A stretch of DNA of 64,000 nucleotides from a virus: IMG/VR virus record IMGVR_UViG_3300009093_000036, positions 62,001 through 126,000 of that record. One strand, given 5' to 3'. The notes beneath the pieces were generated by a model. That model saw nothing but the letters and a program-made list of their open reading frames with translations. It did not search any database and was not told the origin of the DNA. The position numbers and the translations under genes were made by a program. The first letter of the stretch is position 1. Every line of letters starts with the position of its first letter. Of the stretch, positions 5,339 through 60,604 are shown one piece after another.

Positions 5339-6100
5339 TCACTCCACGGTGCGGACGGTCCAGAAGTCGTCCGCGAGGTTCGGGTTGGTGAGATACCCGT
5401 ACGGGATCGTGAAGTAGCCGGCCTGGCCCCACGCCGAGCCCCACGAGTTGCGGACGATGAAGCGCTCGGTGCTGTCGTCGTAGCCGACACACAGGACGGC
5501 ATGACCGCCCAGCATCTGCTCGCCGACCGCCGGAAGGTTGAGCACGCCGGTCTTGGCGACCTCGGCGCTCTCGAAGCTCTCGTAGACGGAGAAGCCGAAG
5601 ACGAACGGGAAGCCCGCCGCGAGGCAGCTCTTCATCGCGCTGAGGCTGGTGCTGACGATGCGCTTGTATGAGAGCGCCTGATGGAGGGCGGCTTCCTTGT
5701 ACGCCTTCGCCGTGGGCTTCAGCTTGAACTTCGTGATGCGGTACGGCCACGTCGTCTCCGCGCACGCCCCGAGCTTCACGACGCTCTTGATGCCGTCCCG
5801 GATCTGAGCGCCAGCGTCGGAGGCGACCGTGCCCTCCATGCTGCGCTCGTTGTAGTAGATGAAGAGCCGCGACGGTGTGAAGAAGAGCCCGAGGTGCTCC
5901 TTGTGGTCGGCGAACGCGAGGGCCGCCGCGATCGCGTTGCCGGTGCAGCTTCCGAGCTGTCCCTGGTCGTAGACCGGCGGGCACTCGCTGCGGAGGTCGA
6001 CCGCCGGGGGCAGTGCGACCGCGCCGTCGATGAAGTACTGATCCCGGTGATCGGGGACGTCGGGGCGCCAGGTGTACTTGCGATGGATGCTCTTGCTCAC
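5339..6100 (-). CDS. Papain-like C1A cysteine protease
   Basis: This 253-residue protein has all papain-family landmarks. The oxyanion Gln and catalytic Cys lie in YDQGQLGSCTGNAIA (about residues 45-60), the His is in GGHAVLCVGYDD (about 205) and the Asn is in VRNSWGSAWG (about 222). The N-terminus PDHRDQYF followed by VDLRSECPPV matches stand-alone bacterial and phage members that lack a long pro-domain. There is no signal peptide, so it would act in the cytoplasm or in the virion. It is grouped with small membrane proteins near the tail-fibre genes, so virion maturation, lysis or host-protein cleavage are all possible. Confidence 0.9.
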   Translation of the reverse strand: MSKSIHRKYTWRPDVPDHRDQYFIDGAVALPPAVDLRSECPPVYDQGQLGSCTGNAIAAALAFADHKEHLGLFFTPSRLFIYYNERSMEGTVASDAGAQIRDGIKSVVKLGACAETTWPYRITKFKLKPTAKAYKEAALHQALSYKRIVSTSLSAMKSCLAAGFPFVFGFSVYESFESAEVAKTGVLNLPAVGEQMLGGHAVLCVGYDDSTERFIVRNSWGSAWGQAGYFTIPYGYLTNPNLADDFWTVRTVE

Positions 6101-13622: not shown

Positions 13623-14036
13623 TCAGAGGCCCGGCATGCGGGGCTGGAGCTTGAACTTGTCGGGTGGCTTCGATGCTCCCTTACGGAGCAGGGCAGCCTT
13701 CTTCTTGTAGAGCTCGGTCTTGTTGATCCGCGCCTTGATCTTCGTGAAGCGAAGCAGGGCTTCCTTCTCGGCCTGCTGATCGAGGTTCTGGGCGTTGGCC
13801 AAGAACGGGAGGGTCTTGTCGGCGTACTCCTGGAACGCCTTGACGATGGGTTCGACCTGCGACTCCGACGTGATGCCTGCGTGAACGAGAGCTCGGGTCG
13901 AGAGAAGTTCCGCTTCCATCCGCCGAAGAGCGATGAGCATGAAGAGCGACTCCTGTGGGGAGTTCGGCGGGGGAAGGCCCGGGTACTTGTCGTACATGAC
14001 GTTCCCGAGAGCCCACCCCACAGAAGTCGCTAGCCA
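13623..14036 (-). CDS. Frame-shifted extension (-1) of the upstream gene, possible tail-assembly chaperone
   Basis: The frame is open from the end of the 14030-15070 gene and encodes about 137 helical residues (LATSVGWALGNVMYDKY ... ALLRFTKIKARINKTELYKKK). It has no well-placed start: the first ATG, at 13997, has only a weak site. It is directly reached by a -1 shift on A-AAA-AAT at 14036-14042, two codons before the upstream stop. This matches the layout of phage tail-assembly chaperone G/GT pairs, which are usually made by -1 frameshifting. The identification rests on architecture, not on sequence similarity, and a free-standing gene from 13997 is the alternative. Confidence 0.55.
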   Translation of the reverse strand, partial: WLATSVGWALGNVMYDKYPGLPPPNSPQESLFMLIALRRMEAELLSTRALVHAGITSESQVEPIVKAFQEYADKTLPFLANAQNLDQQAEKEALLRFTKIKARINKTELYKKKAALLRKGASKPPDKFKLQPRMPGL

Positions 14037-15070
14037 TTTTTTAGCGAGGTCGAGCTGAAGAGCTTGCGCACCCGCAGGTCGAACCAGTACGCGTGGGTGG
14101 AGAGCGAGTGGATGAACGGGCTCGGGTAGCCCATGAAGAGCTGCACCTTCTTGGTGAACACGTCCCACTTGAAGACGCGCATGCCCTTCTCGACACCGAT
14201 GTGCTTCGGCATCTCCTGGCCGTTGATGGAGTGCACCGCCGCGACGGTCTGCATGAAGCCGTAGCGCTCGCTGAGCACCGAGGAGTTCGCGAGCTTCTCG
14301 TCTTCGAGCTGCTGCTCCAGCAGCTTCTGACGGATCTCCTCGTTCTCCAGCGGCGAGATCGAGCGGAACACGACCTCCAGCGCACCCGGCTTGATCGGAA
14401 CGTGCTGCCTGAACTCACCGCTGGCGAGACCGTCGGCGAGGTTCATCTCCTTCACACGACTCTCGACCGCCTTGCGCTCCTCCTCGTTGTTGAGGACGTC
14501 GTTGCGCAGACGCTGCATCATCAGGTCGAAGTCGATGTCCGACGTCTCCGTGAGACGCTGAGCTTCGTCGTCCGAGAGCTTGGTGACGCTCTTCTTCGCT
14601 TCGGCGGGCTTCGCCTCCGCTGCGGCGGTGTCCTGCGGCACCGGCTGTTGCGGAGGAGGCGGCGCAGGCGGCTTCTGCTGAGCGGCCGTCTGCTGGTGGA
14701 GGGCGGACAACCCCGCGATGGTCTCGGGGCTGAGGGAGGGCTTGCGGTCGTTCTCGTCCATGTTCCTGATGTTCTCCTGGGCTACGGCGATGCTCGACAG
14801 CGTCATCGGCCCGTCCTTCTCCGGACGGTACTCCGCATGAGCCGCCGCGAGGTTCGGGATCGGCACCTTCTGCTCTTGGCCGAGGCCCTTGGCGCGCTCC
14901 GCGAGACCCTTCGTGTAGTCCCGCACGTGCGGGTTCGTGGGTCGCGGCGGAACGTTCGGGCGAGAGCCCACGGCAGCAGCTAGGCGGCCAACAGGACCGG
15001 GGCTGGGAGTTCCAGGCCTTCGCGGAGGTGTCATGCGAAGGAGAATACAGAGAGCATACAGCCCGGTCAA
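14030..15070 (-). CDS. Possible tail-assembly chaperone (zero-frame product)
   Basis: This protein has 346 residues from TTG 15070, or 334 from ATG 15034. The first 150 residues are Pro/Ala/Gln-rich and probably disordered. The folded C-terminal part contains ALEVVFRSISPLENEEIRQ, SERYGFMQTVAAVHSINGQE and AYWFDLRVRKLF, a layout that fits chaperone-like proteins encoded before the tape measure. It ends at a TAG two codons beyond a slippery A-AAA-AAT. The start region TTGACC-17-TATTCT also resembles a host sigma-70 promoter, which would give a nearly leaderless mRNA from ATG 15034. Confidence 0.6.
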   Translation of the reverse strand: MTGLYALCILLRMTPPRRPGTPSPGPVGRLAAAVGSRPNVPPRPTNPHVRDYTKGLAERAKGLGQEQKVPIPNLAAAHAEYRPEKDGPMTLSSIAVAQENIRNMDENDRKPSLSPETIAGLSALHQQTAAQQKPPAPPPPQQPVPQDTAAAEAKPAEAKKSVTKLSDDEAQRLTETSDIDFDLMMQRLRNDVLNNEEERKAVESRVKEMNLADGLASGEFRQHVPIKPGALEVVFRSISPLENEEIRQKLLEQQLEDEKLANSSVLSERYGFMQTVAAVHSINGQEMPKHIGVEKGMRVFKWDVFTKKVQLFMGYPSPFIHSLSTHAYWFDLRVRKLFSSTSLKNG

Positions 15071-38112: not shown

Positions 38113-38537
38113 GTTGGTCCATCCTTCCTGATCCAGCCCGTGGGCTCGAAGTCGAGGGTCTTGTTCGCCATGTACTGGCGGAAGTCTTCGAGGGTGAAGG
38201 GGTCATGCCCTCGCTCGTTGCAGAGGGTGCGAGCCGACCACCAGAAGATGCTTCGGTATGAGCCCTGTGGGTACTCCCACGAGAGCTCCATGCACTTGAT
38301 TGCCCAGCGAGAGCTGTTGCGGTCGTGAAACAGCAACATGAAGACCAGCGTCCACTCGCAAGCGATTTTCACTTCCTCTTCGCTGTACTCGCGCTCGTCG
38401 ATGACCTTCCGACTGCCTCCTGTGGCCATCATGCCGCTCGGCCCCGTGAAGCAGATGGTCTGCCCCTCCTCACGTTCGAGCGGCTTGAGTGTCCAGGTGT
38501 TGTTCTCACGCCTCTTCTTGGCGCCTAGCTTCGTCAT
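38106..38537 (-). CDS. Protein of unknown function
   Basis: This is a 143-residue protein. It starts with a basic patch (KLGAKKRRENNTW) and has RKVIDEREYSEEEVKIACEW and an aromatic segment (LSWEYPQGSYRSIFWWSA). It overlaps the ligase gene as TGATG and the ACP-like gene by seven bases. No family is assigned. The position between ligase and ACP does not explain its role. Confidence 0.55.
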   Translation of the reverse strand: MTKLGAKKRRENNTWTLKPLEREEGQTICFTGPSGMMATGGSRKVIDEREYSEEEVKIACEWTLVFMLLFHDRNSSRWAIKCMELSWEYPQGSYRSIFWWSARTLCNERGHDPFTLEDFRQYMANKTLDFEPTGWIRKDGPTW

Positions 38538-39730
38538 CACCACCTCTTCGTCAGATGCGCAACCTTCAGCTTCGGGAACCGGGGCTTGCCATCGGGGGTG
38601 TAGTTCTGGAACTCGATGGTGGCCTCCTTGCCCTCATACTTCGAGGCGTGCTTCAGATACTCCCGGCACTCCTCGCGAGTTCCACAGATGTCGGCCTTGA
38701 AGGCATCCCTCTTGCCGTCGATGATGATCTCCATGTGAGCGATCTTCGCCATCCCCGAGGCGTTGCCGACACCCTCCTCGAAGGCGATGATCTTGAACTC
38801 GGCGTCCAGCTTCTCCTTGCGCTTCAGCAGGGCCTGGGTCCGCTTGTTCTCGTACGGGACGTTCCTCCGAACCATGCCACCTTCGTAGCCCTCTTCGAGG
38901 AAGACCTCATAGAAGCCATCGACCTCTTCGCGAAAGAACGCCGGGTACGTCACCACCCTCACGAACGCCTTCCTGCTGCGGGTGCCCGTCACCACGTTCT
39001 CCATCAGGATGAGCTGCTCGTAGCGCTTCATGAAGTTGGCCTGCCGATCCTCGATCAAGCAGTCGTACACCCAGTACTGCACCATCTCCGCTGAGAGCTT
39101 GAGGTCCTCGACAGTCGGCTTCTGCTTCTTGACGAGCGACACGATCTTGTTGAAGTCGTACTTCAGCTCGTGGTTGTAGAGCTCGCCGTCGAGGATGATG
39201 CTCGGCCTCGCCTTGAAGATGTGCTTGATGCTCTCGAAGACGTGCGGAACAGCGAGGATGGGGTTCCCCTCCCTCGACCACAGGCCATCTTTGTTCGCGA
39301 TGCAGCGGATGCCGTCCAGCTTCGGCTGCAAGTAGAGGGCGTCCCCGATCACTCTGCCGTCGGGGGTGAAGATCTTGGCCATCCTCTTCGCGTACGAAGC
39401 ATCCGGCTCCTTGGCCTTCTGGTTGTAGTGCTCGGCCAGCATGCACTGGAAGCGCTCCGACTCCTTCGCCTCGGTCGGCGTGGCGCGATAGCCCTTCTTC
39501 ACCTTCAGCTCGTACTCGGAGTCGATCTCCGCGGAAGCTTGCTGCTCGCCGGTGGTGGCGTTCGAGCGCCCCACGTTCTTCGGCTGAGCGATCGTCCATT
39601 CAGACGTCGTGATCTTCCCTTCGATCTGACCGCTATGGGAGCGATACTTCGCCCCATCCTGCTCCATCCACCACTTCTGGATTGCTCCAGTGCTGGTCTC
39701 TTTGTAGAGCGGTGCCCGGGTATACTTCAT
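38537..39730 (-). CDS. ATP-dependent DNA ligase
   Basis: This 397-residue protein has the nucleotidyltransferase motif I, QPKLDGIRCI, with the adenylated Lys. Other ligase motifs are ILDGELYNH (motif III), YEGGMVRRN (motif IV) and LLKRKEKLDAEFKI (motif V). It would seal nicks using ATP in phage replication or repair. The N-terminal 110 residues are a divergent, charged extension. The start is ATG 39730 with a GGAG site. It is the first gene after motif site 5 and a terminator, and may lead an operon through the ACP-like and Thg1 genes. Confidence 0.9.
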   Translation of the reverse strand: MKYTRAPLYKETSTGAIQKWWMEQDGAKYRSHSGQIEGKITTSEWTIAQPKNVGRSNATTGEQQASAEIDSEYELKVKKGYRATPTEAKESERFQCMLAEHYNQKAKEPDASYAKRMAKIFTPDGRVIGDALYLQPKLDGIRCIANKDGLWSREGNPILAVPHVFESIKHIFKARPSIILDGELYNHELKYDFNKIVSLVKKQKPTVEDLKLSAEMVQYWVYDCLIEDRQANFMKRYEQLILMENVVTGTRSRKAFVRVVTYPAFFREEVDGFYEVFLEEGYEGGMVRRNVPYENKRTQALLKRKEKLDAEFKIIAFEEGVGNASGMAKIAHMEIIIDGKRDAFKADICGTREECREYLKHASKYEGKEATIEFQNYTPDGKPRFPKLKVAHLTKRW

Positions 39731-39754
39731 CTTGTTCTCCACTGGAAGTTCATG

Positions 39755-40505: not shown

Positions 40506-42611
40506 ACAGACACCGATGTAGATGTTGAAGATGCGCTGCTTCTTGCCCTGCTGGACGCGGACGAGGACTTCATCCGGCTTCGTGGAGGAGAAGCCCAGAC
40601 CGGCCAGGTGCCCTTCCGTGGGGCGGCACTTGGTCTTGTCCCCGATGACCTCGAACACCTTCCGGTGCTCTTCGAGACGCGAGTGGAGGAACTCGTTGTA
40701 GAACCCGCGCATGTCCTCGTCGCTCTTCGCCCCCTCCAAGACGAAGAACGTGTGCTTGTTCCCCACGGCGTTGTCGCCCCAGTAGTTCGGGCTGAGCATC
40801 ACCGTGTTGACCTTGACGTAGCGCTCCGTGGTGAGTCCCCACTTCTCCTGCGAGATGTTGGTCGAGGTGATGCCGGGATCTCCTGCCTCGACGCGCTCGA
40901 TGGCGCCGTTCTTCATGTGCAGCGTCGCCACGACGATGTCCTGCTGGTTCCGGACCTGCTTGTTGTACGAGTAGTGCGAGATCTTGCCCTCACACTCCGT
41001 CTCGATGACGAACCCAGGGTTGCTGGTCTCGCGCTGGGCGAAGTTGTTCACGATGATCTGGTACGGGCCGTCCGGCGGCTTGACGGACCACACCACGTTC
41101 TCGACAGCCTCACGCGTCGCACCGTGCCCGGCGTTCATGTCGACGTCGAGGGTGCCTCCGGTCCAGCCGACCTTGTTGCGGAAGTGGATGTGCTGTCCCG
41201 GCAGACCGAGAGATCCACGAGCTCGTCCGGAGCCCTTGGGCTCGTGAACATGAAGATCGAGATCGTCGTAGTTGAACCACGACAGCGAGATGCGGAGGAC
41301 ACCGTTGATCTTGCCGCCCGCCTTCTTCACGCGCTCCTTGATGGAGTCCGCGACGTTGCCGCCGTAGGACCACGCGAAGTCGTTGTTCCACTTGAAGAGC
41401 TGCTTCGGCTCCGGATGCACCGGCGCCGTCAGAGCCATCAGGTTCCCGAGATGCTTCCCCGAGAAGAACATCTCCATGGCCTGCGCCTTGGGGACGATCT
41501 CCGTCATGAAGTCGTCGAGCGAGATGGCTTCGGCACGGTCCTCGTCCTTCGCCGAAGATCGAGTCGAGGCCGCAGCATGCTGCATGAGGACGTCACCGAT
41601 CCCGCCCTTCATGAGCGAGCGTGCAGCACCGTCGACCCACTTCACGTCGTTCACCGACACGTCGGCCATGACGGCGAACCGACGTTCGAGAGCCGGTTCG
41701 AGTCCCAAGGACTCGATGGTCTCCATCGCCTTCTTCACCATGCCGGGCGTGATGAGGGCGGTCGTCCGCTTGTAGTTCTGCGGAGCCACCTTCGACTCGA
41801 AGCTCTTCACCGCACGTTCGAGCTCCTGACCTTCGGAGAGGTCCTGGACGAGCGTACCGATGACGGTGTTGCGGAATCGGGCCGCAGGGCTGTTGGCGTT
41901 CGCCCACACGAAGAGGGAGCGCTCGGTGTTGAAAGGCCACGTCGCCTTCTTCCCGAGGTACTCGCCCTGCATCTTCTTGAACTCGATGACGGCACGCTTG
42001 TGCTCGTCACCGCGGTACAAGCTCTTCGCCTCGATCAAGGACAAGACGGTATCGACCGCATCGGGAGTCAGCTCGACAAGCCCACGCTCGAAGACCTGGA
42101 CCGTCGTGCGGTAGTTGCCACGATCAGCGTCCGGGGTCGCCGAGCGAAGGCCACGCGGAATCTCCCCGGTGTGGAAGTGGTTCCAGACCAGAACCTTCTC
42201 CGTTGCCTTGTCGAGCTGACGCGTCTGCATCGCACCGAACTGCGTCTCGCTCTTTCCGACACGGAAGAGGTCGCGGATGCCCACGCCGCGCAGAGCCTTC
42301 TGAAGTGCTGCTGCGACGATGCCATACGGCTCCGCCGACGCCTGCTCGACAGCCTTGTCCCAGACGGTGGTCACCCTCCCGTCCGAGATGATGACCGCGC
42401 ATCCTGCGCGGCGGATGAACTGCTTGCAGCACGAGCAGTCGTGCTCGGTGCGCGTCTTGAAGATGGGATCGGTGCCCGGAGGGAAGGAGGCCAGGTACAG
42501 CGCCCAGAGGGCGTCACCGTCCATGTCGGCGACGAAGATGTTGGTGTTGTCCTTCACCATCTTCTGGAAGGACTCGGCGACCGTGCGATAGAAAGAGAGA
42601 AAGAGGGTCAT
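40506..42611 (-). CDS. Large DUF2135-like protein without its stop codon
   Basis: The recognisable protein, about 700 residues from ATG 42611 (AAAAGG site), ends near 40506. An N-terminal Cys cluster (CSCCKQFIRRAGC) is followed by FERGLVELTPDAVDTV and a central domain. The C-terminal part has LRISLSWFNYDDLDLHVHE, GGTLDVDMNAGHG and GPYQIIVNNF, the order of strands in DUF2135/YfaP-like beta domains. The frame stays open beyond this, past the next start, to 39807, where the last codons match the gene there. A missing stop is most likely a sequence or assembly error, but read-through is possible. Confidence 0.65.
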
Positions 42612-42636
42612 GTTGATTTCCTTTTCATGTTGAGGC

Positions 42637-42676
42637 GTGCGGCAGTCCGATACCCGAAGGCACCGAACTGCCGCAC
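42637..42676. repeat. 40-base intergenic hairpin with a UUCG loop
   Basis: GTGCGGCAGT pairs with ACTGCCGCAC, and an inner GGTGCC/GGTATC pair (with wobbles) closes on a TTCG tetraloop. It lies between the gene ending at 42686 and the start at 42611. No T-run follows. It may stabilise the mRNA or signal a non-host polymerase. Confidence 0.7.
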
Positions 42677-42685
42677 ACATCGATG

Positions 42686-43888
42686 TCAGAGCTGCGTCGA
42701 ACGCTCGATGACCGGGGCTTCCCCACGTGCCCGCCGCTTGGCGTTGCACGCCTTGCAGCCACAGTCAGGCGTCGGCTCACCCTTCGCCACAGCAGCGTCG
42801 ACGACCTTCTGCCGCTCCGCCGCCTTGAGCTCGCCCTCGGCACGCTCGGGGTGCTTCGCGAGGACGGTCGCGATCGCCTCGTCGACCGTCTTGTAGCGCT
42901 GCACGAGGTCTGCGTGGATGAGGTTGACGATCACCACCAGCATCTCCGCGAGCTCGCCGTCGTACCCGAACACCTCGCGGTAGCGGGCATCCAGGTCCTT
43001 CATGTCCTTGAACAGCCGGAGCGGGAGCTTCCGAACGCCGTCCATGTCGACAGCATCGGTACGAGGACGGTTCCGGCGCAGGAAGTCCTCGACGCTCGTG
43101 ATCAGCCCGAACGTCTGGTTCTCCTCACGCCAGAGGTCGCCCACCGTGATCGAGCCATCGGGCTCGCTCGCCGCAGACTTCCTTCCCTCGGCGCTGCTCA
43201 GCAGGTCATCGAAGTCGATCCCGGGACCATCGCCGAACAGGTCGTCGAGGCTCATGACGCGAACGCCACGACCACCGAGAGAAGCACCCCCGGCACCGAG
43301 CAGAGACATCAGCACCGAGACGATGCTGCTGCCTCGGGCGCCACCACTTCGACGACTGGCCTGCTGCTCGATCGAGGTCGGGCCCTGAAGGCTCGGATCC
43401 AGACCCACCTTGAACAGCCGCAGCATCTCCAGCTTCGAGACCTTCTTCTCCCGAAGCTCCTGGAAGAGCTCCTGGACGGCGACGCCGGCCTTGACCGAGA
43501 CATGCTGCTCGATGTCGTCGAACACTTCACGAATCACGTGCTGGGGGACCCGGAACGCGAGGGCGGTGAGCAGCATGTCGTGCTCGTCCACTGCGTCCAT
43601 GGAGGTGAGCTTGTCCCCCTCGCGGTGTGCCGTGATGACATTCCCGATGAGGCGCATGCCATGCCCACCACGCTCGTGCTCACCCTCGCTGAGAATCGCG
43701 AGCTGCTCGTGCGTCAGCTCCATCAGCTCCGAGAGAGCAGTGACCACCGGCTGCTCGGGATTGAGGCCGGTCAGGGCGTACTCGACGATCTGCTCGACCT
43801 TCTTGGAGCCGATCTCCGCCATGAGGGCGCTGAAGATGATGTCGAGCAGGGTCGACCGCTTGAGGAGCTTGTTCTTGTCGATGTTCAT
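42686..43888 (-). CDS. 400-residue protein of unknown function with C-terminal Cys cluster
   Basis: It begins with MNIDKNKLLKRSTL at ATG 43888. Residues 20-140 are helical (KKVEQIVEYALTGLNPEQP, SELMELTHEQLAILSEGEH). A Gly/Arg-rich centre (SLLGAGGASLGGRGVR) precedes a helical domain (VIVNLIHADLVQRYKTVDE). The C-terminus carries CGCKACNAKRRARGE, a possible zinc site. Motif site 6 lies about 35 bases upstream, so it heads its own transcript. I do not recognise the family. Confidence 0.65.
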   Translation of the reverse strand: MNIDKNKLLKRSTLLDIIFSALMAEIGSKKVEQIVEYALTGLNPEQPVVTALSELMELTHEQLAILSEGEHERGGHGMRLIGNVITAHREGDKLTSMDAVDEHDMLLTALAFRVPQHVIREVFDDIEQHVSVKAGVAVQELFQELREKKVSKLEMLRLFKVGLDPSLQGPTSIEQQASRRSGGARGSSIVSVLMSLLGAGGASLGGRGVRVMSLDDLFGDGPGIDFDDLLSSAEGRKSAASEPDGSITVGDLWREENQTFGLITSVEDFLRRNRPRTDAVDMDGVRKLPLRLFKDMKDLDARYREVFGYDGELAEMLVVIVNLIHADLVQRYKTVDEAIATVLAKHPERAEGELKAAERQKVVDAAVAKGEPTPDCGCKACNAKRRARGEAPVIERSTQL

Positions 43889-45618: not shown

Positions 45619-46317
45619 CTATTTCTTCTTCTTGTTCAGGTCTCGAACCAGGGGTCTGTGAACGTGCGGGATGGGTCCGTACTTCTTGATCGCACCTGCG
45701 TGCTCGTCCGTGCCGTAACCCGCGGACGTCTTCAAGTAGTACCTCGGGAACTTCTTGTCAAGCAAGTTCATCTCGACGTCCCGGTTGAACTTGGCGAAGA
45801 TCGAGGCCGCTCCAACATGAGGAACGAACTCGTCCGCCTTCGGGACGTACAAGATGTTGATGCACGCGAAGGTCATGAGCATGTCGTGGACCTTCGCAGA
45901 CCGCACACCGTCGACGATGATCGCGAGGTTCTTCGGCAACACCTTGCAGTGCTGCATCAGAGACTTCATCGCGATGTGCATCGCTCGAACGTACGCTCCC
46001 GCATGCGTGTGCTTCTCGATGTCGTCGGGCGTTGCTGCCCCTTCGGCATGGAAGACGTCCGTGCTGTCGTCGATCAGCTCGATCATCCGTTCTCTGTGCT
46101 CTGGTGTCGTCTTCTTCGAGTCCTTCACTCCTTCCAGGTCCCATCTCCGCGGAGCCAGCACCGCGCTGAGATAGAAGGGCCCTGCCCATGCACCTGTGCC
46201 GCTCTCGTCGATGCCGACCAGGTGCGTGATGTTGCCGCTGTTGTCGATGATGTCGTTGAGGGCCCGACGCCATCGGTCCAGCTCGTTGAGTTTCTCTACG
46301 TTCACTTTTCTGGGCAC
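45619..46317 (-). CDS. rnhB: Ribonuclease HII
   Basis: This 232-residue protein has the RNase HII active-site phrase GIDESGTGAWAGPFYL (bacterial enzymes read (V/I)DE(A/V)G(R)GPLAGPV), with the catalytic D-E pair, and the family phrases VKDSKKTTPEHRE, IIVDGVRSAK and VGAASIFAK. It ends with HVHRPLVRDLNKKKK. It would remove ribonucleotides or RNA primers from DNA. GTG 46317 is the start, behind GAGG. It is located beside a histone-like gene. Confidence 0.9.
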   Translation of the reverse strand: MPRKVNVEKLNELDRWRRALNDIIDNSGNITHLVGIDESGTGAWAGPFYLSAVLAPRRWDLEGVKDSKKTTPEHRERMIELIDDSTDVFHAEGAATPDDIEKHTHAGAYVRAMHIAMKSLMQHCKVLPKNLAIIVDGVRSAKVHDMLMTFACINILYVPKADEFVPHVGAASIFAKFNRDVEMNLLDKKFPRYYLKTSAGYGTDEHAGAIKKYGPIPHVHRPLVRDLNKKKK

Positions 46318-46319
46318 TG

Positions 46320-46844
46320 CTACCTCGTGTCTCGGATCTTCTTTGCCAGCTCCCGCCCCATGTCAATGATCATGGAGTTGGTCAGGAGCTCCGAGACTAC
46401 TCGATTCGCCGCGTTCAAGCTGAAGTAGCTCATGTTCTCGATGGCTCCCTTGACTGAGTCCTTCTTGCTGAACGGGTGCCCGAGCCACCACGCCGCATGA
46501 AGCTCGACAGCGATCGAGTCCAGCTCGTTCCCATCTGCGGCGACCGGCGACATGTCGCTGAGCACTGCGCTCAGGGACCTGGTCCTCTTGTCAAAGACGG
46601 TCTTGCCCTCCAAGCAGACGTGGTGCGCAAGTTCGTGAAGAACCTCCTCGAACCGAATGTGCATGTAGTTCTTCGTGACGTACTGGTCGTTGGTGGTCGT
46701 GACGGTGATGGTCTCAACGTTCACCTTCGCCAGCAGTCTCTCCGTGGATCGCATGACCGACTCGATGGGGCGTCTCCGGCCCATGACGCGGTCTCGGTCC
46801 TTCGCGGTCAGCGGCGTGATGCCGTACATGCCGCGCGAGTACAT
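46320..46844 (-). CDS. HExxH zinc-metallopeptidase-like protein (family member 3)
   Basis: This is a 174-residue protein. About residue 70 is VLHELAHHVC (HExxHH), and downstream ADGNELDSIAVELHAAWWLG offers a Glu with a nearby A-V pattern. The N-terminus reads TPLTAKDRDRVMGRRRP. The start ATG 46844 overlaps the upstream stop as TGATG. Its layout matches the proteins at 30119 and 34547. It may be a zinc peptidase or metal-binding relative. No signal peptide is seen. Confidence 0.55.
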   Translation of the reverse strand: MYSRGMYGITPLTAKDRDRVMGRRRPIESVMRSTERLLAKVNVETITVTTTNDQYVTKNYMHIRFEEVLHELAHHVCLEGKTVFDKRTRSLSAVLSDMSPVAADGNELDSIAVELHAAWWLGHPFSKKDSVKGAIENMSYFSLNAANRVVSELLTNSMIIDMGRELAKKIRDTR

Positions 46845-47662
46845 CAGGGAATCACCCCGAAGAGTGTGTCGTAGATCGGCAACTTCTTCTTCGCCTTCGT
46901 TCCGCTCCGACCGTGGACTGCGAATGCGATACCGAGCTTCTCCTTGTAGAGGCGATCGGTGTCGAAGCAGAGCCGGCACTGGGTGCAGGTCACCTTGTTC
47001 GTCTCCGCAGGGCACGGGATGAACTTGATGTCGCAGTCCGGGATCGTGAACGCCTTCTTTGAAGGAAACTCACGAACAACGAGTGCGGGGACGTACCCCT
47101 TCATGTAGCGAGCTCGGTGGGCTTCCTTCGCCGTCTCCACCGAAGCCAGGACCTGGATGGGTCCCCACAGCGATCGGACGATCCGCCTCCACGAGTGCGT
47201 GTACGTCCACACGATGCCGCCGCCACGACCTCGATAGCGGATGGCAGCGCTCGACAGCGCCATCGCCGCGATGTCGTTCTGGGCATCACCGCTGACGTGA
47301 AGGCGCAGGTCTCGACCTGCGTTGCCGTACTTGCCTCCGTCCTTCGGCACGCCGTTCACGAACAAGTTGTCGATCGCTGCTGCCTCGATGACACCGATGT
47401 TCTCCTTGTTCTTCTTCACCTCATCATCGAGGCGGTGAACCATCAGTCCGGTGTAGCCGGCGTCAGCGAAGCAGCCGGCGTCCTTGAACTTGCACACGTC
47501 GTCGCACGTCCCGCGAATCGTGACGTAGGTCGAGGCCACGAACGGACCCTTCGGCACAAGCCGCGGGCGTTTCAGCGTCGGACCACGCACGATGTCGACA
47601 GGGCCGAGCTTCCGGTTGGCACTCTTCGGCTTGATGAGCACCCCAGGGAATCGTTCGGTCAT
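46844..47662 (-). CDS. Cysteine-rich phage protein of unknown function
   Basis: This 272-residue protein has CDDVCKFKDAGC near residue 50 and, near the C-terminus, CPAETNKVTCTQCRLC, so it could hold two metal or Fe-S sites. Between them are GIVWTYTHSWRRIVRS, a conserved-looking segment, and SKKAFTIPDCDIKFIP. The start ATG 47662 has a GGAGG site. A terminator hairpin separates it from the next gene upstream. I have the impression of a phage family with a radical-SAM-like Cys set, but the standard CxxxCxxC is absent. Confidence 0.6.
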   Translation of the reverse strand: MTERFPGVLIKPKSANRKLGPVDIVRGPTLKRPRLVPKGPFVASTYVTIRGTCDDVCKFKDAGCFADAGYTGLMVHRLDDEVKKNKENIGVIEAAAIDNLFVNGVPKDGGKYGNAGRDLRLHVSGDAQNDIAAMALSSAAIRYRGRGGGIVWTYTHSWRRIVRSLWGPIQVLASVETAKEAHRARYMKGYVPALVVREFPSKKAFTIPDCDIKFIPCPAETNKVTCTQCRLCFDTDRLYKEKLGIAFAVHGRSGTKAKKKLPIYDTLFGVIP

Positions 47663-47671
47663 CTCGTCCTC

Positions 47672-47706
47672 CAAAAAGAAAGAGCCCCGCTACGCGCGGA
47701 GCCCTC
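47672..47706 (-). terminator. Rho-independent terminator overlapping a gene end
   Basis: On the minus strand GAGGGCTCCGC pairs (with wobbles) with GCGGGGCTC, followed by TTTCTTTTTGG. The hairpin contains the stop codon of the gene at 47690-48286. Confidence 0.75.
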
Positions 47707-48286
47707 TCAGTTCTTCTCTCGTCTTGAACGGCAGGGAGACGTCATTGTCCACCGCCCACTCGAAGTACATGTCGACAGGATCACGAGGCCACGTCGGGTA
47801 CTTGAAGGTGGGGAGCCCTTCCGAGCTCAGTAGCCCCACGCTCTTCGCACGTGCGTAGCCATCCTTCCAGATGTCGTTGAGAAGCCAGTACTTCCTCGGG
47901 CTACGGCTGTAGTAGAGGTCCTCGGCATCGCTGACGTGGGTTCCCTGCTGCCACCCCACCACTCGCTTGAAGTCCCGTGGACGCAGCATCGTGCGTGCCA
48001 CCTCACGCTCCACCTGCATGAGCAGCCAGTTCTCGCGAACGCTGTCGATCAAGCAGCCGGTGGGGTGCGTGATGATGTGCATCATCTCGTGAAGATGCGA
48101 CTCGATGTTGTTGCCTCCGTAGAGATAGACCTCACGCCTCTCGATGTGAAGCCCGTTCCCGAACCCGGTCTCGATGTCCTTGGGGACGCTCTTGAGCGTG
48201 ACGGGCTCAACCAAGTACTCGGGGATGATGTGGATGGTGATTTCGTAGCGCTCAGCGATCTCTTGGATCTCAGGGCTGACGGGCAT
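47690..48286 (-). CDS. HExxH zinc-metallopeptidase-like protein (family member 4)
   Basis: This is a 198-residue protein. SHLHEMMHIITHP holds an HExxH, and downstream VEREVARTMLR has a Glu followed by A, the same E-x-x-A pattern as the other members. The N-terminal part has IQEIAERYEITIHIIPEYL. Its stop lies inside a terminator. Start ATG 48286 overlaps the upstream stop. It probably binds zinc; whether it cleaves proteins is unknown. Confidence 0.55.
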   Translation of the reverse strand: MPVSPEIQEIAERYEITIHIIPEYLVEPVTLKSVPKDIETGFGNGLHIERREVYLYGGNNIESHLHEMMHIITHPTGCLIDSVRENWLLMQVEREVARTMLRPRDFKRVVGWQQGTHVSDAEDLYYSRSPRKYWLLNDIWKDGYARAKSVGLLSSEGLPTFKYPTWPRDPVDMYFEWAVDNDVSLPFKTREELRGLRA

Positions 48287-48750
48287 CAGATCTCCAGAAT
48301 GTCGTAGTTCTCAGACTCGGGCGTGAACAGCAGAACAGGAACTTGAAGGTCCTGCGCCACCGTGATGACCTCGTAGTCGAGAAGAGTGCTGCTGGGGTCG
48401 AGCTGAGAGGTGAGTGCCCATACCCACAGAGCGTGAGCTCCGAGCAGGCAGGTGACATCTCGCTCGTGATCGTCGCTCTTGTTCAGGCGTCGAACACGAT
48501 CTGCGGGTTCATCAGGCCCAGGGCCGTACACCTCAACGCGATGACCATGTTCAGGAGCGAGCCTCTCTATGAACTCCTCCGGGCCCGTGATCATCCCGCT
48601 GACCCTGAAGGTGACGGGGCGACCAAGGACCCGGAGGTCGTAGAGGAAGTACTCCAAGACGTCGTAGTCGCGTCCCGTGTTCCGCATGCGCGGCGCCATC
48701 AGGACCACGACCGGCTCAGGGTGCGGAAGAAGGAGTTCTACGTGTCTCAT
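48286..48750 (-). CDS. SLOG-like or unknown Rossmann-type protein
   Basis: This 154-residue protein reads PEPVVVLMAPRMRNTGRDYD, LGRPVTFRVSGMITG, then PEHGHRVEVYGPGPDEPADR, a nucleotide-binding-like alternation of strands and Gly turns. ALWVWALTSQLDPSSTLLDYE follows. Glycine turns after strands recall SLOG-type domains, but no core signature is certain. The start ATG 48750 lies within a few bases of motif site 7. Confidence 0.5.
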   Translation of the reverse strand: MRHVELLLPHPEPVVVLMAPRMRNTGRDYDVLEYFLYDLRVLGRPVTFRVSGMITGPEEFIERLAPEHGHRVEVYGPGPDEPADRVRRLNKSDDHERDVTCLLGAHALWVWALTSQLDPSSTLLDYEVITVAQDLQVPVLLFTPESENYDILEI

Positions 48751-48767
48751 CGTAGCTCTGATAGCGG
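48750..48767 (-). promoter_or_regulatory. Putative phage promoter, repeated motif site 7
   Basis: The minus strand reads TCCGCTATCAGAGCTACG. The CTATCAG core is kept, but the flanks differ. It ends at the start codon of the downstream gene, so if it is used the mRNA would have almost no leader. Confidence 0.4.
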
Positions 48768-48769
48768 AA

Positions 48770-49162
48770 TCACGCCTTGTGCGTGAGGTATTCCTTCGCG
48801 TACGCCAGCACCTGTTCGAGGTTGTTCTCCTCGCCCTTGATGTACTTGGCGCCCTCGATGACGGTCCGCTGAAGCATGGCTCGCGGGTCATCGACCGGAA
48901 AGATGTCCAGCTTCTTCGCATCGAGCTGCTGACGCCGCTCGCGAATCCACTCCTTCAAGTAACGCATCTCCATGGTCATGAAGATACGAGACGACTTCGC
49001 TGACTCTCTCCACCGCTCATCGGCACGTCGGGGGTCACCCAACTGCTTCTCGACGTTCAGTACGCCCATCGTTGCGTCATCGAGGCGGCTCTTCGCTTCG
49101 GCCATGGTCTGCGGGACCTTGAAGGTGTACTTGTCGCGATTCTTCTGTTCGTGTTTGGGCAT
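48770..49162 (-). CDS. Charged helical protein of unknown function
   Basis: This is a 130-residue protein. It begins MPKHEQKNRDKYTFKVP. Charged helices follow (MAEAKSRLDDATMGVLNVEK, WIRERRQQLDAKKLDIF). The start ATG 49162 overlaps the upstream stop as TGATG. It may act as a nucleic-acid-associated or scaffold protein; no motif decides. Confidence 0.55.
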   Translation of the reverse strand: MPKHEQKNRDKYTFKVPQTMAEAKSRLDDATMGVLNVEKQLGDPRRADERWRESAKSSRIFMTMEMRYLKEWIRERRQQLDAKKLDIFPVDDPRAMLQRTVIEGAKYIKGEENNLEQVLAYAKEYLTHKA

Positions 49163-49551
49163 CACAGTCCTCTGTACGTCGCCGTCGGCATGGACGGCGT
49201 CGGATCTGCACGTCGTACGTGTACCAGAAGACCAGCCGCTCGCGCAGCCGAGATCATGTGTTGGGTGCCAGGGCTCTTGCCGTCCCAGATCGCAACGAGG
49301 GCTTGCGCCTTCTTCGCCATCTCCAGGTTCCGCTTGATACCGGCACCGTTTCCATGCTTCGCCCAGTCAGCCGGGAAGGGATCGATGGGGATGCCCATGC
49401 GACGAGCGAACTCTTCGCCGAGCTTGTCGACACCCTCCGCCTGTCCCGACACGACGGTGGTGAACCAGTAGCCGGAGCTCAGGCAAGCGTTCTCGACCAT
49501 GGAGTAGTCCAAGTACGTGAACGACCTGCTGCCGGCGATGATGACCCTCAT
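49162..49551 (-). CDS. DUF2493 (SLOG-type) protein
   Basis: This 129-residue protein starts MRVIIAGSRSFTYLDYS, the opening of DUF2493/YspA proteins (x-x-I-I-A-G-S-R-x-F/x-D-Y). It continues with VVSGQAEGVDKLGEEFA and FPADWAKHGNGAGIKRN, the typical G-x-A-x-G-x-D and W-x-x-x-G-x-x-A-G-x-x-R-N elements of the nucleotide-binding SLOG fold. Members are common in phages and may bind or cleave a nucleotide signal. Start ATG 49551 overlaps the upstream stop as ATGA. Confidence 0.85.
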   Translation of the reverse strand: MRVIIAGSRSFTYLDYSMVENACLSSGYWFTTVVSGQAEGVDKLGEEFARRMGIPIDPFPADWAKHGNGAGIKRNLEMAKKAQALVAIWDGKSPGTQHMISAARAAGLLVHVRRADPTPSMPTATYRGL

Positions 49552-49745
49552 CCTTGGTCGAGGTCGCGGGGCTTGGGGTATGCCGCGAACTCGAAGTGGG
49601 AGCGTGGAAGGCGGATCTCGTTGCCGTTGAGCTGCCGGATGGTGAGGATCGTGACGAGGCCCGTCTTCTGGACCTTCTCGACCTTGCCTTCCGCACCATC
49701 GAGATAGCGTCCGTTCTTCACGCGGACCCAGTCGTCCTTCAGCAT
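49548..49745 (-). CDS. Small KOW-like protein
   Basis: This 65-residue protein has the segment DDWVRVKNGRYLDGAEGKV, a KOW-like opening (V-x-x-G-x-x-x-G-x-x-G-x-V), then VTILTIRQLNGNEIRLP. The start is ATG 49745 behind AGAAGG. It may bind RNA or a protein through an SH3-like barrel. Confidence 0.5.
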   Translation of the reverse strand: MLKDDWVRVKNGRYLDGAEGKVEKVQKTGLVTILTIRQLNGNEIRLPRSHFEFAAYPKPRDLDQG

Positions 49746-49912: not shown

Positions 49913-50494
49913 TCAGCCCTTGAGAATGGGACCAACGGGTCGTCGCTTCGTCGCTACGTGTGGATGTGGCTTGTCGACGAAGTCCTTGTTGAAACGATCG
50001 TTCTCGATCGACGCAATCGCCGAGGCTCCACTCTCTTCGAGCTTCTTCAGCTCCATGAACAGCGCCAAGCGGTTCTTGGGAGAGAGGAGGATCCGCCAGT
50101 CCATGATGGTGTGGATGCGATACATCTCACGGGACACGTACTCGGTGTTGGCGAGATGTCCGTGAAAGACCTCGCTCTTGGCGTTCTCCACCATGTCCAT
50201 GAAGGACCCGACATCGATAGCCGGGATCTTCATCTTCAGATCATCGACGACGAAGTTGTACTCGTGCCGCCCCGTCCACATGATGCCGCCCATGTCGAGA
50301 AGAATCCCGTCGGCGTCTTCCTCGATCATCTTCGCGAGCTTGACCCCGGGCTTGTTCTTCAGCCCCTCCACGGACGCCGCGACCTCCCACGACTGATGAA
50401 GCAGCGGGATGATCTCGGCATCACAGACCACCTTCGGGGGAGCGTGCGTGAACTCGATGGAGTAGTCCGGCCGAAGCCTCTTCCAGACCGTCAT
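49913..50494 (-). CDS. Protein of unknown function
   Basis: This is a 193-residue protein. It contains LHQSWEVAASVEGLKNKPG, GILLDMGGIMWTGRHEYNF and YRIHTIMDWRILLSPKNR. The start ATG 50494 overlaps the NDK gene as TGATG. The combination of strands and helices suggests a compact alpha/beta fold, but no motif is recognised. Confidence 0.55.
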   Translation of the reverse strand: MTVWKRLRPDYSIEFTHAPPKVVCDAEIIPLLHQSWEVAASVEGLKNKPGVKLAKMIEEDADGILLDMGGIMWTGRHEYNFVVDDLKMKIPAIDVGSFMDMVENAKSEVFHGHLANTEYVSREMYRIHTIMDWRILLSPKNRLALFMELKKLEESGASAIASIENDRFNKDFVDKPHPHVATKRRPVGPILKG

Positions 50495-51186
50495 CAGACA
50501 GCCCGAAGCCCTTCGGCGGTCCACTTCTGGTTCTTGTACTTCTCGATGAGGCGATAGGCCTCCTCGCCGAAGCGCGGGGCTACGCGCAACGTGCTGCGAA
50601 CGAAGTTGACTTCGCGGCGCGCACTCTCGTCACTGTCGCTGCCGTGCACAGCGTTGTGCATCATGACGCCGTCCTTGGCGGCGAACAGTCCTCGGATGGT
50701 CCCGGACGACGCCTTCATCGGGTCCGTGGGGCCCATCAGGCTTCGCCACTTGTTGACGGCATCCGGGGCGACCATGGTGAGGGCGATCATCCGTTCACTG
50801 GACATGAACTTGACGAGGTCCCAGTAGAAGGCCTTCCCAGCATGCTCTCCGTAGAACTCGGAAACGTCCGCTGGATCCCAACGCGAGCAGAGCATGTCAC
50901 CGATCAAGAAGTTGTCCTCGATCTGATGGATGATCGCTCCAGCCTTGCGGGCCTGGATGGCGTCCGGCTTGATGAGGGCGAAGGTGTACTCCAGCCTTCC
51001 GCCCGTCAGGAAGTCCAGCTTGGGACCTTCCGCCTTCACAGGAGCGGGCGTGGGTGGGGACGGCAGGTGACGGCTCGGGACGTCATGGCAGTCGGCGGTC
51101 TTCTCGCAGATCTCACACCTTCCGTAGCTCTTGATGATCGCCTCGGGGTACTTGTTCTCGACTCGACACTTTTCGCAGTAGAACAT
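50494..51186 (-). CDS. ndk: Nucleoside diphosphate kinase with N-terminal zinc ribbon
   Basis: This is a 230-residue protein. The N-terminal 40 residues carry CEKCRVENKYPEAI followed by CEICEK, a zinc ribbon not found in typical NDKs. A linker leads to the NDK domain: YTFALIKPDAIQARKAG (Lys-12 region), FYWDLVKFMSSER, and DGVMMHNAVHGSDSDESA, with the catalytic His in the N-A-V-H-G-S-D motif. The domain has about 150 residues, as usual. It would make NTPs and dNTPs. The start ATG 51186 follows GGAGGAG. Confidence 0.9.
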   Translation of the reverse strand: MFYCEKCRVENKYPEAIIKSYGRCEICEKTADCHDVPSRHLPSPPTPAPVKAEGPKLDFLTGGRLEYTFALIKPDAIQARKAGAIIHQIEDNFLIGDMLCSRWDPADVSEFYGEHAGKAFYWDLVKFMSSERMIALTMVAPDAVNKWRSLMGPTDPMKASSGTIRGLFAAKDGVMMHNAVHGSDSDESARREVNFVRSTLRVAPRFGEEAYRLIEKYKNQKWTAEGLRAV

Positions 51187-56079: not shown

Positions 56080-57336
56080 TCACCACACCATGGGCGTAGG
56101 AGTCGATGTTGATGTGGTCGTCCCGTTACCGAGCTGACCCTGCGAGTTGTCGCCCCAGCACATGACCACCCCGCTCTGCATGATGCAGGCGTGGTTCGTC
56201 CCAAGCTGAAGGCTGGTGCCGACGATGTTGGTGTAGGTACCTACCGCATCCGAAGCCGGCAGCGCGTTGAAGGTGGCCGGACCCGTGAAGGTCGACGGCG
56301 TCGAGGACGAACAGTAGATGCCGGCTGCACGAGTCGATGTTCCAGTTGGGATCATCACGCACGCACGGCCACCATCGAGGTCGACCTCAGTGGCACCAGT
56401 CCACGTCGGCGTCAGCACCGGATGACCTGACGTCGAGCACGACACACTCGGGCCCGTCTCCGAGCTCGGCATCGTGCCCGTCCACGTGAAGCATGCGACG
56501 AGGTCGTTCGCATTGAAGGTGCCGGTCCGTGCGACATCCGTTGCGTCGTAGGTCGCCGCACCATCCACCGCCGTCCAGAAGTTCGCGTAGTCGGTCGTCA
56601 CCGGATGACCCGGAAGCGACGTGACAACACGATCCCAGCAGCGCAGGCCGCCGTTGATGTCGATGGCACAGTTCAGCGCCGGCATGCTGTCGACCGCCGT
56701 CGCCGGCGAGTAGGTGGGCGACATCAGGTTGAACGGGTGGACGAGACCATCCGTACGGCCGACGTACGCCTGGACACCCAGCACGGAGACGTCCGAACCG
56801 TAAGGTGTCGACCCCACGGCGTACGTGACACCACCGGCTGCGGTCCAGCACAGCACACGGCCATCGAGGCCGATGCCGCAGTTCCCTTCGAGATCGACGG
56901 CATCCGCAACGTGTGCGGGCGTCGAAGAGCCACCACCCCAGCACCACATCTGGTTCGTGCTCGTGAGCACACACGACGTGTTGCCATTCACGCCGAGCTC
57001 GACGATGGACCCAGGCCCCGAGGGACCCGCATCCGTCATCGCTGCGTCGACACCGGCGTCTGCGGTCGAAGTTCCGCTATCCGGAGTCCCGGTGGAAGCA
57101 TCAACCCCGCCGTCGTCAGTGACCATCGGGCCACTGTCGGAGGTCGCACTGTCGACCCCTGCGTCCGAGCCACTGTCTGCTTGTGCGTCGACTCCAGCAT
57201 CCGCCACCACCTCCATCTGAGCGTCGCCCATAGGCTGAGCATCCGCGGCCGGCACACCGCTGTCGGTGTACGCGACCGGCATGCCTTCCCCGCAGCCGAC
57301 GACCAGAACCATCATCAGCACGATGTTCAGCTTCAT
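56080..57336 (-). CDS. Lipoprotein with RCC1-type repeats
   Basis: This is a 418-residue protein. MKLNIVLMMVLVVGCGEG is a signal peptide with a lipobox ending VVGC. Residues 25-105 form a low-complexity linker of Asp, Ala, Ser, Gly (DAGVDAQADSGSDAGVDSA). The rest carries repeats of the RCC1 beta-propeller type, best seen as SCVLTSTNQMWCWGGG, GLDGRVLCW and ACIMQSGVVMCWGDNSQGQL. The linker/RCC1 style is common in myxobacterial surface proteins, so the gene may have come from the host. A phage copy at the cell surface could block other phages or change adhesion. Motif site 11 is just upstream. Confidence 0.85.
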   Translation of the reverse strand: MKLNIVLMMVLVVGCGEGMPVAYTDSGVPAADAQPMGDAQMEVVADAGVDAQADSGSDAGVDSATSDSGPMVTDDGGVDASTGTPDSGTSTADAGVDAAMTDAGPSGPGSIVELGVNGNTSCVLTSTNQMWCWGGGSSTPAHVADAVDLEGNCGIGLDGRVLCWTAAGGVTYAVGSTPYGSDVSVLGVQAYVGRTDGLVHPFNLMSPTYSPATAVDSMPALNCAIDINGGLRCWDRVVTSLPGHPVTTDYANFWTAVDGAATYDATDVARTGTFNANDLVACFTWTGTMPSSETGPSVSCSTSGHPVLTPTWTGATEVDLDGGRACVMIPTGTSTRAAGIYCSSSTPSTFTGPATFNALPASDAVGTYTNIVGTSLQLGTNHACIMQSGVVMCWGDNSQGQLGNGTTTSTSTPTPMVW

Positions 57337-58332: not shown

Positions 58333-58907
58333 GGTGCCCATCCGTAGTGCTTCGCCGCCTTCTGGTAGGCTTCGTAGAAGCGGATGATGAGGGTTTGGAG
58401 GCTGCGCTCCTGCTCCTCGGTGAGACGAAGACGCTGGCGTGCATCCTTCCCCGCATCGACGACTGCCTCCGCCGAGTCGCAGTAGCCACGAACGGCACGC
58501 AACCCCCACTTCGGAGGGTTGTCGACCATGTCGTTCACGTTCGAGGTCTTGTCCGCGATCTTGATGAGGACACCCCCGATGTCCATCATCTTCATCATCA
58601 TGACCTGGTGAGCCGTCTTCTTCTCGTGGTTGCCATCTCGGCAGTCGAGAGGAAGCGTCAGGTCACGAGCGAGGTCGGCCGAGTAGCCGAACTTCTCGTG
58701 GAGCTCCTCGTACGTCGTCTCCGTGTCCTCCAGGGTGTCGTGGAGGATGGCCCCAACGAGAGTGAAAGGGTCGTCGACACCAGCAGCGACGAGACGCTGC
58801 GCGACGTCGAAGCAGTGTGTGACGTAGGGCTCGTTCTTCGGCCCCCGACCCGCCTGCTTGGCATGGCGACTGGCCGCGAACTTCGCGGCCTCGAAGATCT
58901 TGTTCAT
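58329..58907 (-). CDS. MESH1-like (p)ppGpp hydrolase (HD domain)
   Basis: This 192-residue protein is shaped like stand-alone RelA/SpoT hydrolase domains: NEPYVTHCFDVAQRLV, GAILHDTLEDTETTYEEL with the HD-E-D metal ligands, and GVLIKIADKTSNVNDM for the last helix. No synthetase domain follows, so it would only degrade (p)ppGpp and related alarmones. A phage enzyme of this kind could blunt the host starvation or toxin response. The start ATG 58907 overlaps the polymerase-like gene. Confidence 0.85.
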   Translation of the reverse strand: MNKIFEAAKFAASRHAKQAGRGPKNEPYVTHCFDVAQRLVAAGVDDPFTLVGAILHDTLEDTETTYEELHEKFGYSADLARDLTLPLDCRDGNHEKKTAHQVMMMKMMDIGGVLIKIADKTSNVNDMVDNPPKWGLRAVRGYCDSAEAVVDAGKDARQRLRLTEEQERSLQTLIIRFYEAYQKAAKHYGWAP

Positions 58908-58909
58908 GT

Positions 58910-60604
58910 TCACTCCTTCTTGTCGTGCGGCCCACGCATCATCGCGAACATCGCCATCTCCGCCTCGGAGGGCGTGCGAACTGGGCGATTCATGTCGAGG
59001 TCCTTGTGGACCTCACTGAGGATGGCGGGGCAGTGGATGTTGGCGATGTTCATCTTGCTTTCCGCATCGAGGCGCAGGAAGCGGATGGTGAGGCCCCAAG
59101 CTGTACGATCCAGCACGACCCCTCGTTCGTTCTGAGGACCCGGACCCTTGGAGATGGTGAAGCGGAAGCGCCCAGTGGTCGGGTACTCGATGGAGACGTA
59201 CTCGTAGACCGCCGTCAGGCCGTTGAAGCGCTTCGGAACATCGACGAGGGACATGACTCCAAGCAGCTTCACCCCCAAGCTGTTCTTCGAGATCCCAGGC
59301 TTCCGATCGGTGACACGCAGCGTCTGCGCCCAGCGAAGGCGGTGGACCTTGTACATCTGCGGGGAGGAGTAGAAAGCCTCCAGGGATTCCGAGTCCCTCT
59401 TCCACCACTTCAGCAAGGCCGCCTTGGTGCCTTCGAGCAACGAGCCCGCACAGTGCTCGCACTCCTTCGCATCTCTGCGAGACAGGATGGCAGGCTCGCT
59501 TCGATACCCTCCGTCGACACCCACACGAGTGACGTACGCCTTGCATCCGCAGTCCCGTCGGTTGGTGAGGCATTCACCGTGCCGGAGGGGGATCTCCTTT
59601 TCCAAGCCAGCGATGCGAGCTTCCGCGAGCCGCTGAGCCGAGAAGAGACCTTGAGTGACCTCTGCATCTGCCTTCGCATAGTTCGCCAGTCCTGCATCGA
59701 GGCCGCTGATGATCCTCAGACCTCCGTAGAGGGCAGAGAGCTCCGTCGACTTCGCAGCATCGCGCTGTTCTTTCGTGATCTGCGACGGAGGGACCTTGAA
59801 GATCTGTGACGCGATCTGCGTGTGGAAGTCGCGCTCTTCCGCCCATGTCCTGCTGTAGGGGAGGTCAGAAGAAACCACGGGCAGAGACCACACCTGCCGA
59901 AGCTCTTCGAGCTGCCTCGGGGAGAGACGGCGTTGTCTTACGGACCTCGGGTCCTGCCGCTTCCTCATCCACGGCTCGATCATGCTGGGGTCGATGCCCT
60001 TGGCCTTGGCGATGTTGATCGACTCCTCGCTGATGAGATCGAGCAAGATGAGGAGCTGCATCACATCCGTGGGCATCTTGCCAGCCACAGCAAGGCGCTC
60101 CAGATGCTGTTCGACCTGCTCCATGTGCGAGGCCCTCACCTTGTGGGGCTCCTTCCCCAGCATGTGGGACGTGAGCTCCCTGGAGTGTCCGTGCTGTCCG
60201 TAGTGCTGAAGAGCGACCTGAGCGATCACCCTCCACTCCAGCTCCGCGTAGTCCATCTTGAGGATGGGCTCCTGGGACTGACCCATCACCTCACGGCGAA
60301 ATGGGTCCGCGAACGGTATCGGGCTCCTCGGGTAGAGGGAGGCCATGAAGGAGGGGCGCTTGGCACTTTCTCGCCCCTCCTTCACCGGGTCCGGCTTCGG
60401 GGTGTTCGAGACGTGCGGCTCCTTCGAGGAAAGCCGCTCTGTCTTCACGTTCGCTTTGAACGCCGCCTCTTCCTGCTTCGCTTCCTCTTTCGGAGGTGCA
60501 GGTGGCGCAGCGTACGCCCGGCATGCCGGGTTCGTGCAGCCTTCGCTCGTGAATGCGAGCGTGATCTCGCACGGTGACGTGCAGAACATACACTTATGCT
60601 TCAT
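58910..60604 (-). CDS. Divergent family A DNA polymerase-like protein lacking motif C
   Basis: This 564-residue protein has a Cys-rich N-terminus (CMFCTSPC, CTNPAC). Motif A appears as KMDYAELEWRVIA (D118; normal DYSQIELR), and the fingers helix as QRDAAKSTELSALYGG (R281, K285, L289 in place of Phe, Y293-G294). The O1-type helix GSLLEGTKAALLKWW then follows. At the site of motif C (HDE) it reads MYKVHRLRW, so the catalytic Asp is absent. A Cys set (CLTNRRDCGC, CEHC) is inserted before it. No 3'-5' exonuclease domain exists. It may be inactive or a different nucleotide-binding protein. The start is ATG 60604. Confidence 0.7.
   Translation of the reverse strand: MKHKCMFCTSPCEITLAFTSEGCTNPACRAYAAPPAPPKEEAKQEEAAFKANVKTERLSSKEPHVSNTPKPDPVKEGRESAKRPSFMASLYPRSPIPFADPFRREVMGQSQEPILKMDYAELEWRVIAQVALQHYGQHGHSRELTSHMLGKEPHKVRASHMEQVEQHLERLAVAGKMPTDVMQLLILLDLISEESINIAKAKGIDPSMIEPWMRKRQDPRSVRQRRLSPRQLEELRQVWSLPVVSSDLPYSRTWAEERDFHTQIASQIFKVPPSQITKEQRDAAKSTELSALYGGLRIISGLDAGLANYAKADAEVTQGLFSAQRLAEARIAGLEKEIPLRHGECLTNRRDCGCKAYVTRVGVDGGYRSEPAILSRRDAKECEHCAGSLLEGTKAALLKWWKRDSESLEAFYSSPQMYKVHRLRWAQTLRVTDRKPGISKNSLGVKLLGVMSLVDVPKRFNGLTAVYEYVSIEYPTTGRFRFTISKGPGPQNERGVVLDRTAWGLTIRFLRLDAESKMNIANIHCPAILSEVHKDLDMNRPVRTPSEAEMAMFAMMRGPHDKKE

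Follow-up and report, generated by a model that had tools for sequence, protein, structure and literature searches.

Tail assembly chaperones made by -1 ribosomal frameshifting are well known in phages and are common, though not universal, in the family; their genes typically lie between those for the tail tube and the tape-measure protein, an order that is typical rather than defining. The lambda proteins bind the tape measure through their G part and the tail-tube protein through their T part (PMC5009743), and the G/GT genes have a chaperone-type open reading frame, a -1 heptamer at its 3' end before the stop, and an overlapping -1 extension. Bacillus phage G (NC_023719) has an annotated tail assembly chaperone pair, gp181 and gp182, of which the longer is joined (frameshifted); the slip site is TTA AAA AAC TAG (A AAA AAC TAG), and the chaperone and tape-measure genes form one uninterrupted block with those for the sheath and other structural proteins.

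We describe here a cassette of similar design in a 64,000-nucleotide stretch of phage DNA (the window), which corresponds to bases 62001–126000 of the 195,355-base virus record IMGVR_UViG_3300009093_000036; positions are those of the window unless given as record positions. It shares all three of the lambda features listed above, but has no detectable sequence similarity to lambda G/GT, and it departs from it in two further respects: the slip sites of this lineage are A_AAA_AAT or G_GGA_AAT and are accompanied by a conserved long-range stem, and the tape-measure-like gene is 6–64 kb off rather than adjacent. The phage G tail sheath is similar to that of the window phage, and gp181/gp182 are among the best fold matches of the zero-frame product (ORF0). 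The departures from phage G are that its chaperones are contiguous with the structural genes and that its -1 part is longer, and a profile comparison of the cassette with the phage G chaperones found no similarity. The predicted fold of the ORF0 domain is like those of the HK97 tail assembly chaperone (2ob9) and XkdN-like/YqbN (3klu, phrog_389), from which ORF0 differs in having an extra, poorly conserved N-terminal segment of ~145 residues.

The phage and its overlapping frames

Most of the window genes are on the minus strand. Among the genes of the record are those for a terminase, the major head protein, a tail sheath and a baseplate-like protein. A 2065-aa protein (record 175833–182030, outside the window) is kin to phage RNA polymerase beta-subunit families and is apparently one large polypeptide; each of the 17 related genomes that were searched has a homologue. 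The record is thus that of a large contractile-tailed phage. There are several other genes of note. In the window and on the minus strand are those for a Peptidase_C1 (papain-family) cysteine protease (5339–6100, E 1.8e-16), a nucleoside diphosphate kinase domain (50494–51186, E 7.6e-37), a domain of ATP-dependent DNA ligase (38537–39742), and a putative secreted lipoprotein with RCC1 repeats and an Asp/Ala-rich linker (56080–57336), whose style is reminiscent of Myxococcota proteins and may be a hint of the host. Outside the window, a two-component-like cluster (record 58400–61046) with a PAS-HisKA-HATPase histidine kinase and two response-regulator proteins is near tail-fibre-like genes, and a NADAR-domain protein (record 42044–43123) is encoded on the plus strand of a tail region that is otherwise mostly minus.

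ORF0 is at 14030–15034 on the minus strand, giving a putative G-like product of 334 aa from an ATG at 15034 (or 346 aa from a TTG at 15070), in which the weakly conserved N-terminal region is followed by a conserved, predicted chaperone domain. Its zero-frame end is CTA AAA AAT GGC TAG, which places A_AAA_AAT (14036–14042, minus strand) in the canonical X_XXY_YYZ phase, with GGC as the only codon separating it from the TAG stop (14030–14032). The sequence CTAAAAAATGGCTAG occurs once, at 14030–14044 on the minus strand. The first-pass annotation had proposed a -1 slippery heptamer at this position, and both the heptamer (reading 14042 to 14036, one codon ahead of the TAG) and the position are correct; the strand had been left unstated. 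The -1 frame reads AAA AAA TGG CTA GCG (K-W-L-A-T-S…) and runs on through 137 residues before it stops at 13623, in agreement with the roughly 137 codons claimed. This extension (13623–14042, minus strand), a putative T-like domain beginning (KK)WLATSVGW…, is supported by the open frame and by 60 relatives. The fusion is expected to be ~470 aa from the ATG, with a predicted spanning peptide of …STSLK/KWLATS…, …STSLKKWLATSVGW.

The base composition of the site is unusual. Across ~172 kb of called genes there is no other A6 run on the sense strand, and this one is remarkable because the genome is 60–64% G+C and uses AAG 51 times per 1000 codons as against 1.9 for AAA (AAT 2.1 and CTA 0.7, with AAC at 32). 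The record has further X_XXY_YYZ heptamers that are in frame and lead into long -1 extensions, at record positions 156286–156765 and 83826–84206; these are probably ordinary overlapping genes.

Conservation of the site and a downstream stem

Direct searches of IMG/VR, GTDB genomes and isolate phages found one near relative, with a heptamer identical to that in the window, and nothing more. Further relatives were reached by a search with the major capsid protein, which gave 23 phage contigs, and then by profiles. When 17 records were searched with profiles of both reading frames, with the slip codons not used for selection, seven proved to have the cassette; it was not found in the ten others, mostly fragments in which absence is uninformative. 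The junctions of the seven have A_AAA_AAT in five, G_GGA_AAT in one and A_AAA_ACT in one (6/8, 1/8 and 1/8 when the window phage is included). With a profile built from the eight -1 domains, 60 loci were then recovered (53 distinct, there being a few near-duplicates); the retrieval pattern, [KG][KN]W in the -1 frame, pre-selects amino acids but leaves codons, phase and stop free. The arrangement is the same in all 60: an upstream zero-frame reading frame has its stop at the identical place, the third codon past the XXY codon. ORF0 itself is matched by tblastn in 53 of 59 related loci.

A canonical heptamer is present in 59 of the 60 loci, being G_GGA_AAT in 33 and A_AAA_AAT in 26. The one departure is IMGVR_UViG_3300005527_000040, with A_AAA_ACT, which would permit re-pairing by the P-site tRNA only; this is a variant of the slip site or else an error in the sequence. 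Lysine is encoded in the cassette genes by AAG 1646 times and by AAA 231 times, and the slip-site lysine is always AAA. The exchange of A_AAA_AAT for G_GGA_AAT is hard to explain except through selection for tandem slippage. We also considered whether the DNA around the site is exceptionally identical in the window phage and its closest relative, and dropped the idea, as other 25-nt blocks are equally identical. The cassette gave no match in Salmonella phage Arash, which has TerL and sheath similarity, and among 50,697 isolate phage records there is no match to the chaperone proteins of the lineage, including those of two of the relatives.

The first-pass annotation overlooked a putative stimulatory stem downstream of the heptamer. 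A 4-nt spacer, GGCT (14032–14035, minus strand; its final base is the T of the TAG), separates the heptamer from a 5' arm, AGCGACTTCTGTGGGG (14016–14031, minus strand), that can pair over 16 bp, including one G-U, with a 3' arm, CCCCACAGGAGTCGCT (13945–13960, minus strand), leaving a 55-nt loop (13961–14015). A 16-bp stem at this spacing occurs at none of 6000 control positions in minus-strand genes, where the longest is 14 bp. The folding energy of the segment ranks 54th among 3000 windows of the same genome, with a z of -4.3 against its own shuffles. Both sides have changed in seven of the 16 pairs in a set of eight phages, and the covariation score was reached by none of 500 shuffles. A larger set of 54 phages has 92 double-changed cells as against 42.6 ± 5.1 in shuffles that leave kinship uncorrected (0/500), and 71.6% of cells are paired as against at most 49.3% with slid partners, a control that retains kinship. 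When folded individually, 49 of 53 phages have an outer helix of at least 8 bp starting at most 13 nt from the heptamer. RNAalifold recovers the stem from eight rows, and does not predict it from the 54-row alignment. Both arms are protein-coding, and sequence conservation in them is thus partly shared with the coding function.

We infer that ORF0 and the -1 frame form one programmed -1 frameshift gene for a chaperone pair, in the manner of lambda G/GT. The majority of ribosomes would terminate at the TAG and yield the 334-aa G-like chaperone, while the 16-bp stem would pause the ribosome at A_AAA_AAT, where a fraction may slip back one base and translate 137 more codons to produce the ~470-aa GT-like fusion. 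Because the A-site tRNA-Asn re-pairs imperfectly when it moves from AAT to AAA, the efficiency may be low. By analogy with lambda, the G-like part would coat the tape-measure protein and the T-like extension would recruit tail-tube subunits.

Predicted folds and gene order

An AlphaFold2 model of the last 188 residues of ORF0 has a mean pLDDT of 86. A Foldseek search of the PDB with this model gave no significant match, and the PDB chaperone matches surfaced in a second look with VIA-align. The best are the HK97 tail assembly chaperone 2ob9 (Z 6.9 over 100 residues, a value in the range that common arrangements can give) and YqbN 3klu (Z 6.7 over 91 residues), both at 9–12% identity, with the next aligned chain at Z 4.2. 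A viral structure library adds the tail assembly chaperone of Rhodococcus phage Finch (E 4e-4) and phage G gp181/gp182 (E 0.013), with more chaperones further down. Sequence-based matches are weak: the XkdN-like phrog_389 is matched at E 0.038 by the window protein and at best at 0.0016 among its relatives, with HMMER the window protein has no significant hit in any named chaperone family and none in Pfam, and a PDB sequence search gave nothing useful. The first-pass annotation had read the product as a tail assembly chaperone, and the fold match to the HK97 chaperone and YqbN, the annotated viral chaperones including phage G gp181/182, and the weak XkdN-like match give that interpretation good support. 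The -1 domain is helical in its predicted model, for which a structure search found no clear match.

The annotation also expected a tape-measure gene just downstream, and none adjoins the cassette. The best candidate is a 1227-aa Ala/Gly-rich protein (record 45941–49624), co-oriented with the cassette and 26 kb downstream of it. A homologue of ~1150–1300 aa is present in 17 of 17 genomes tested, co-oriented in each and about 6–64 kb downstream of the cassette (with two records treated as circular). These candidates have no PHROG or other profile match, and their identity is therefore suggested by size, composition and conserved co-occurrence. The cassette is not located between tail tube and tape-measure genes; a candidate for the tail-tube gene is at record 144642–145352, and the sheath gene is about 70 kb away.

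This gene order is one reason to consider that the frameshifting is real but that the products are some other virion or assembly protein, such as a baseplate or head component. HMMER-level membership in a named chaperone family is likewise missing, the -1 domain is without a known fold, and one of its members has a weak PHROG match to 'virion structural protein' (E 0.007). However, the fold matches that stand out for ORF0 are to tail assembly chaperones, the PHROG matches are XkdN-like, and a chaperone-fold domain with a slip site at its 3' end and a helical extension is the architecture of G/GT. We regard a different function as improbable, though it is the best of the alternatives; if the cassette proteins do something other than G/GT, they would represent a new frameshift-encoded virion or assembly system.

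Selection on the -1 frame and its implications

Comparison of the window phage with its nearest relative shows purifying selection on the -1 frame: its dN/dS is 0.06–0.10 (0.06 over the first 120 codons), whereas both other frames give values of about 9. The first-pass annotation also noted the lack of a good start in this frame; among the relatives, no start codon is conserved in the open -1 frame. A separate, ordinary gene initiating soon after the slip site and coupled to the ORF0 stop would be consistent with the window phage itself, which has a GTG seven codons and an ATG 15 codons past the slip site, but the positions of such starts are not conserved, and in six phages the open frame lacks a -1 start codon both upstream and over the 30 codons that follow. 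A Shine-Dalgarno-like motif precedes a -1 frame start in only two of 53 phages, and the strongly conserved W-L-x-T-P-x-G-W motif is upstream of most candidate starts. A separate gene also leaves the conserved heptamer codons and the stem unexplained, and we consider it very improbable. An assembly error in the A6 run (a true A7 and one continuous reading frame), or slippage by the phage RNA polymerase to give A7 transcripts, is scarcely credible: A7 would join the frames directly and the phage does have its own large RNA polymerase-like protein, but neither homopolymer error nor transcript slippage can be a general explanation when canonical heptamers replace each other, with 33 relatives having G_GGA_AAT and no long homopolymer and A6 being common to 26 loci, while the identical stop position in 60 of 60 loci also argues against both and neither has need of a covarying stem.

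Programmed -1 frameshifting at this site is thus very likely as judged from the sequence comparisons, and the same arrangement in 60 of 60 loci, the heptamer swap, the covarying stem and the purifying selection on the -1 frame all support the frameshift proposed in the first-pass annotation. That the outcome is a G/GT-like chaperone pair is also likely, if somewhat less so. A more specific proposal is that this lineage of 100–210 kb, RNA-polymerase-encoding phages has an unlinked G/GT pair with a new T-like domain (helical, and carrying W-L-x-T-P-x-G-W), the ratio of the two products being set by the covarying long-range stem; we offer this tentatively, and think it rather unlikely to hold in full.

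A large uncultivated lineage thus probably joins the phages that tune their tail chaperone ratio by frameshifting. It was previously without an annotated frameshifted chaperone, and the location of the gene is unusual. The ~60 natural variants, in which the heptamer takes two alternative forms and the stem covaries, provide a test set for the control of frameshift efficiency, and the distance between the chaperone and the tape-measure candidate shows how the usual gene-order rule can miss tail chaperones.
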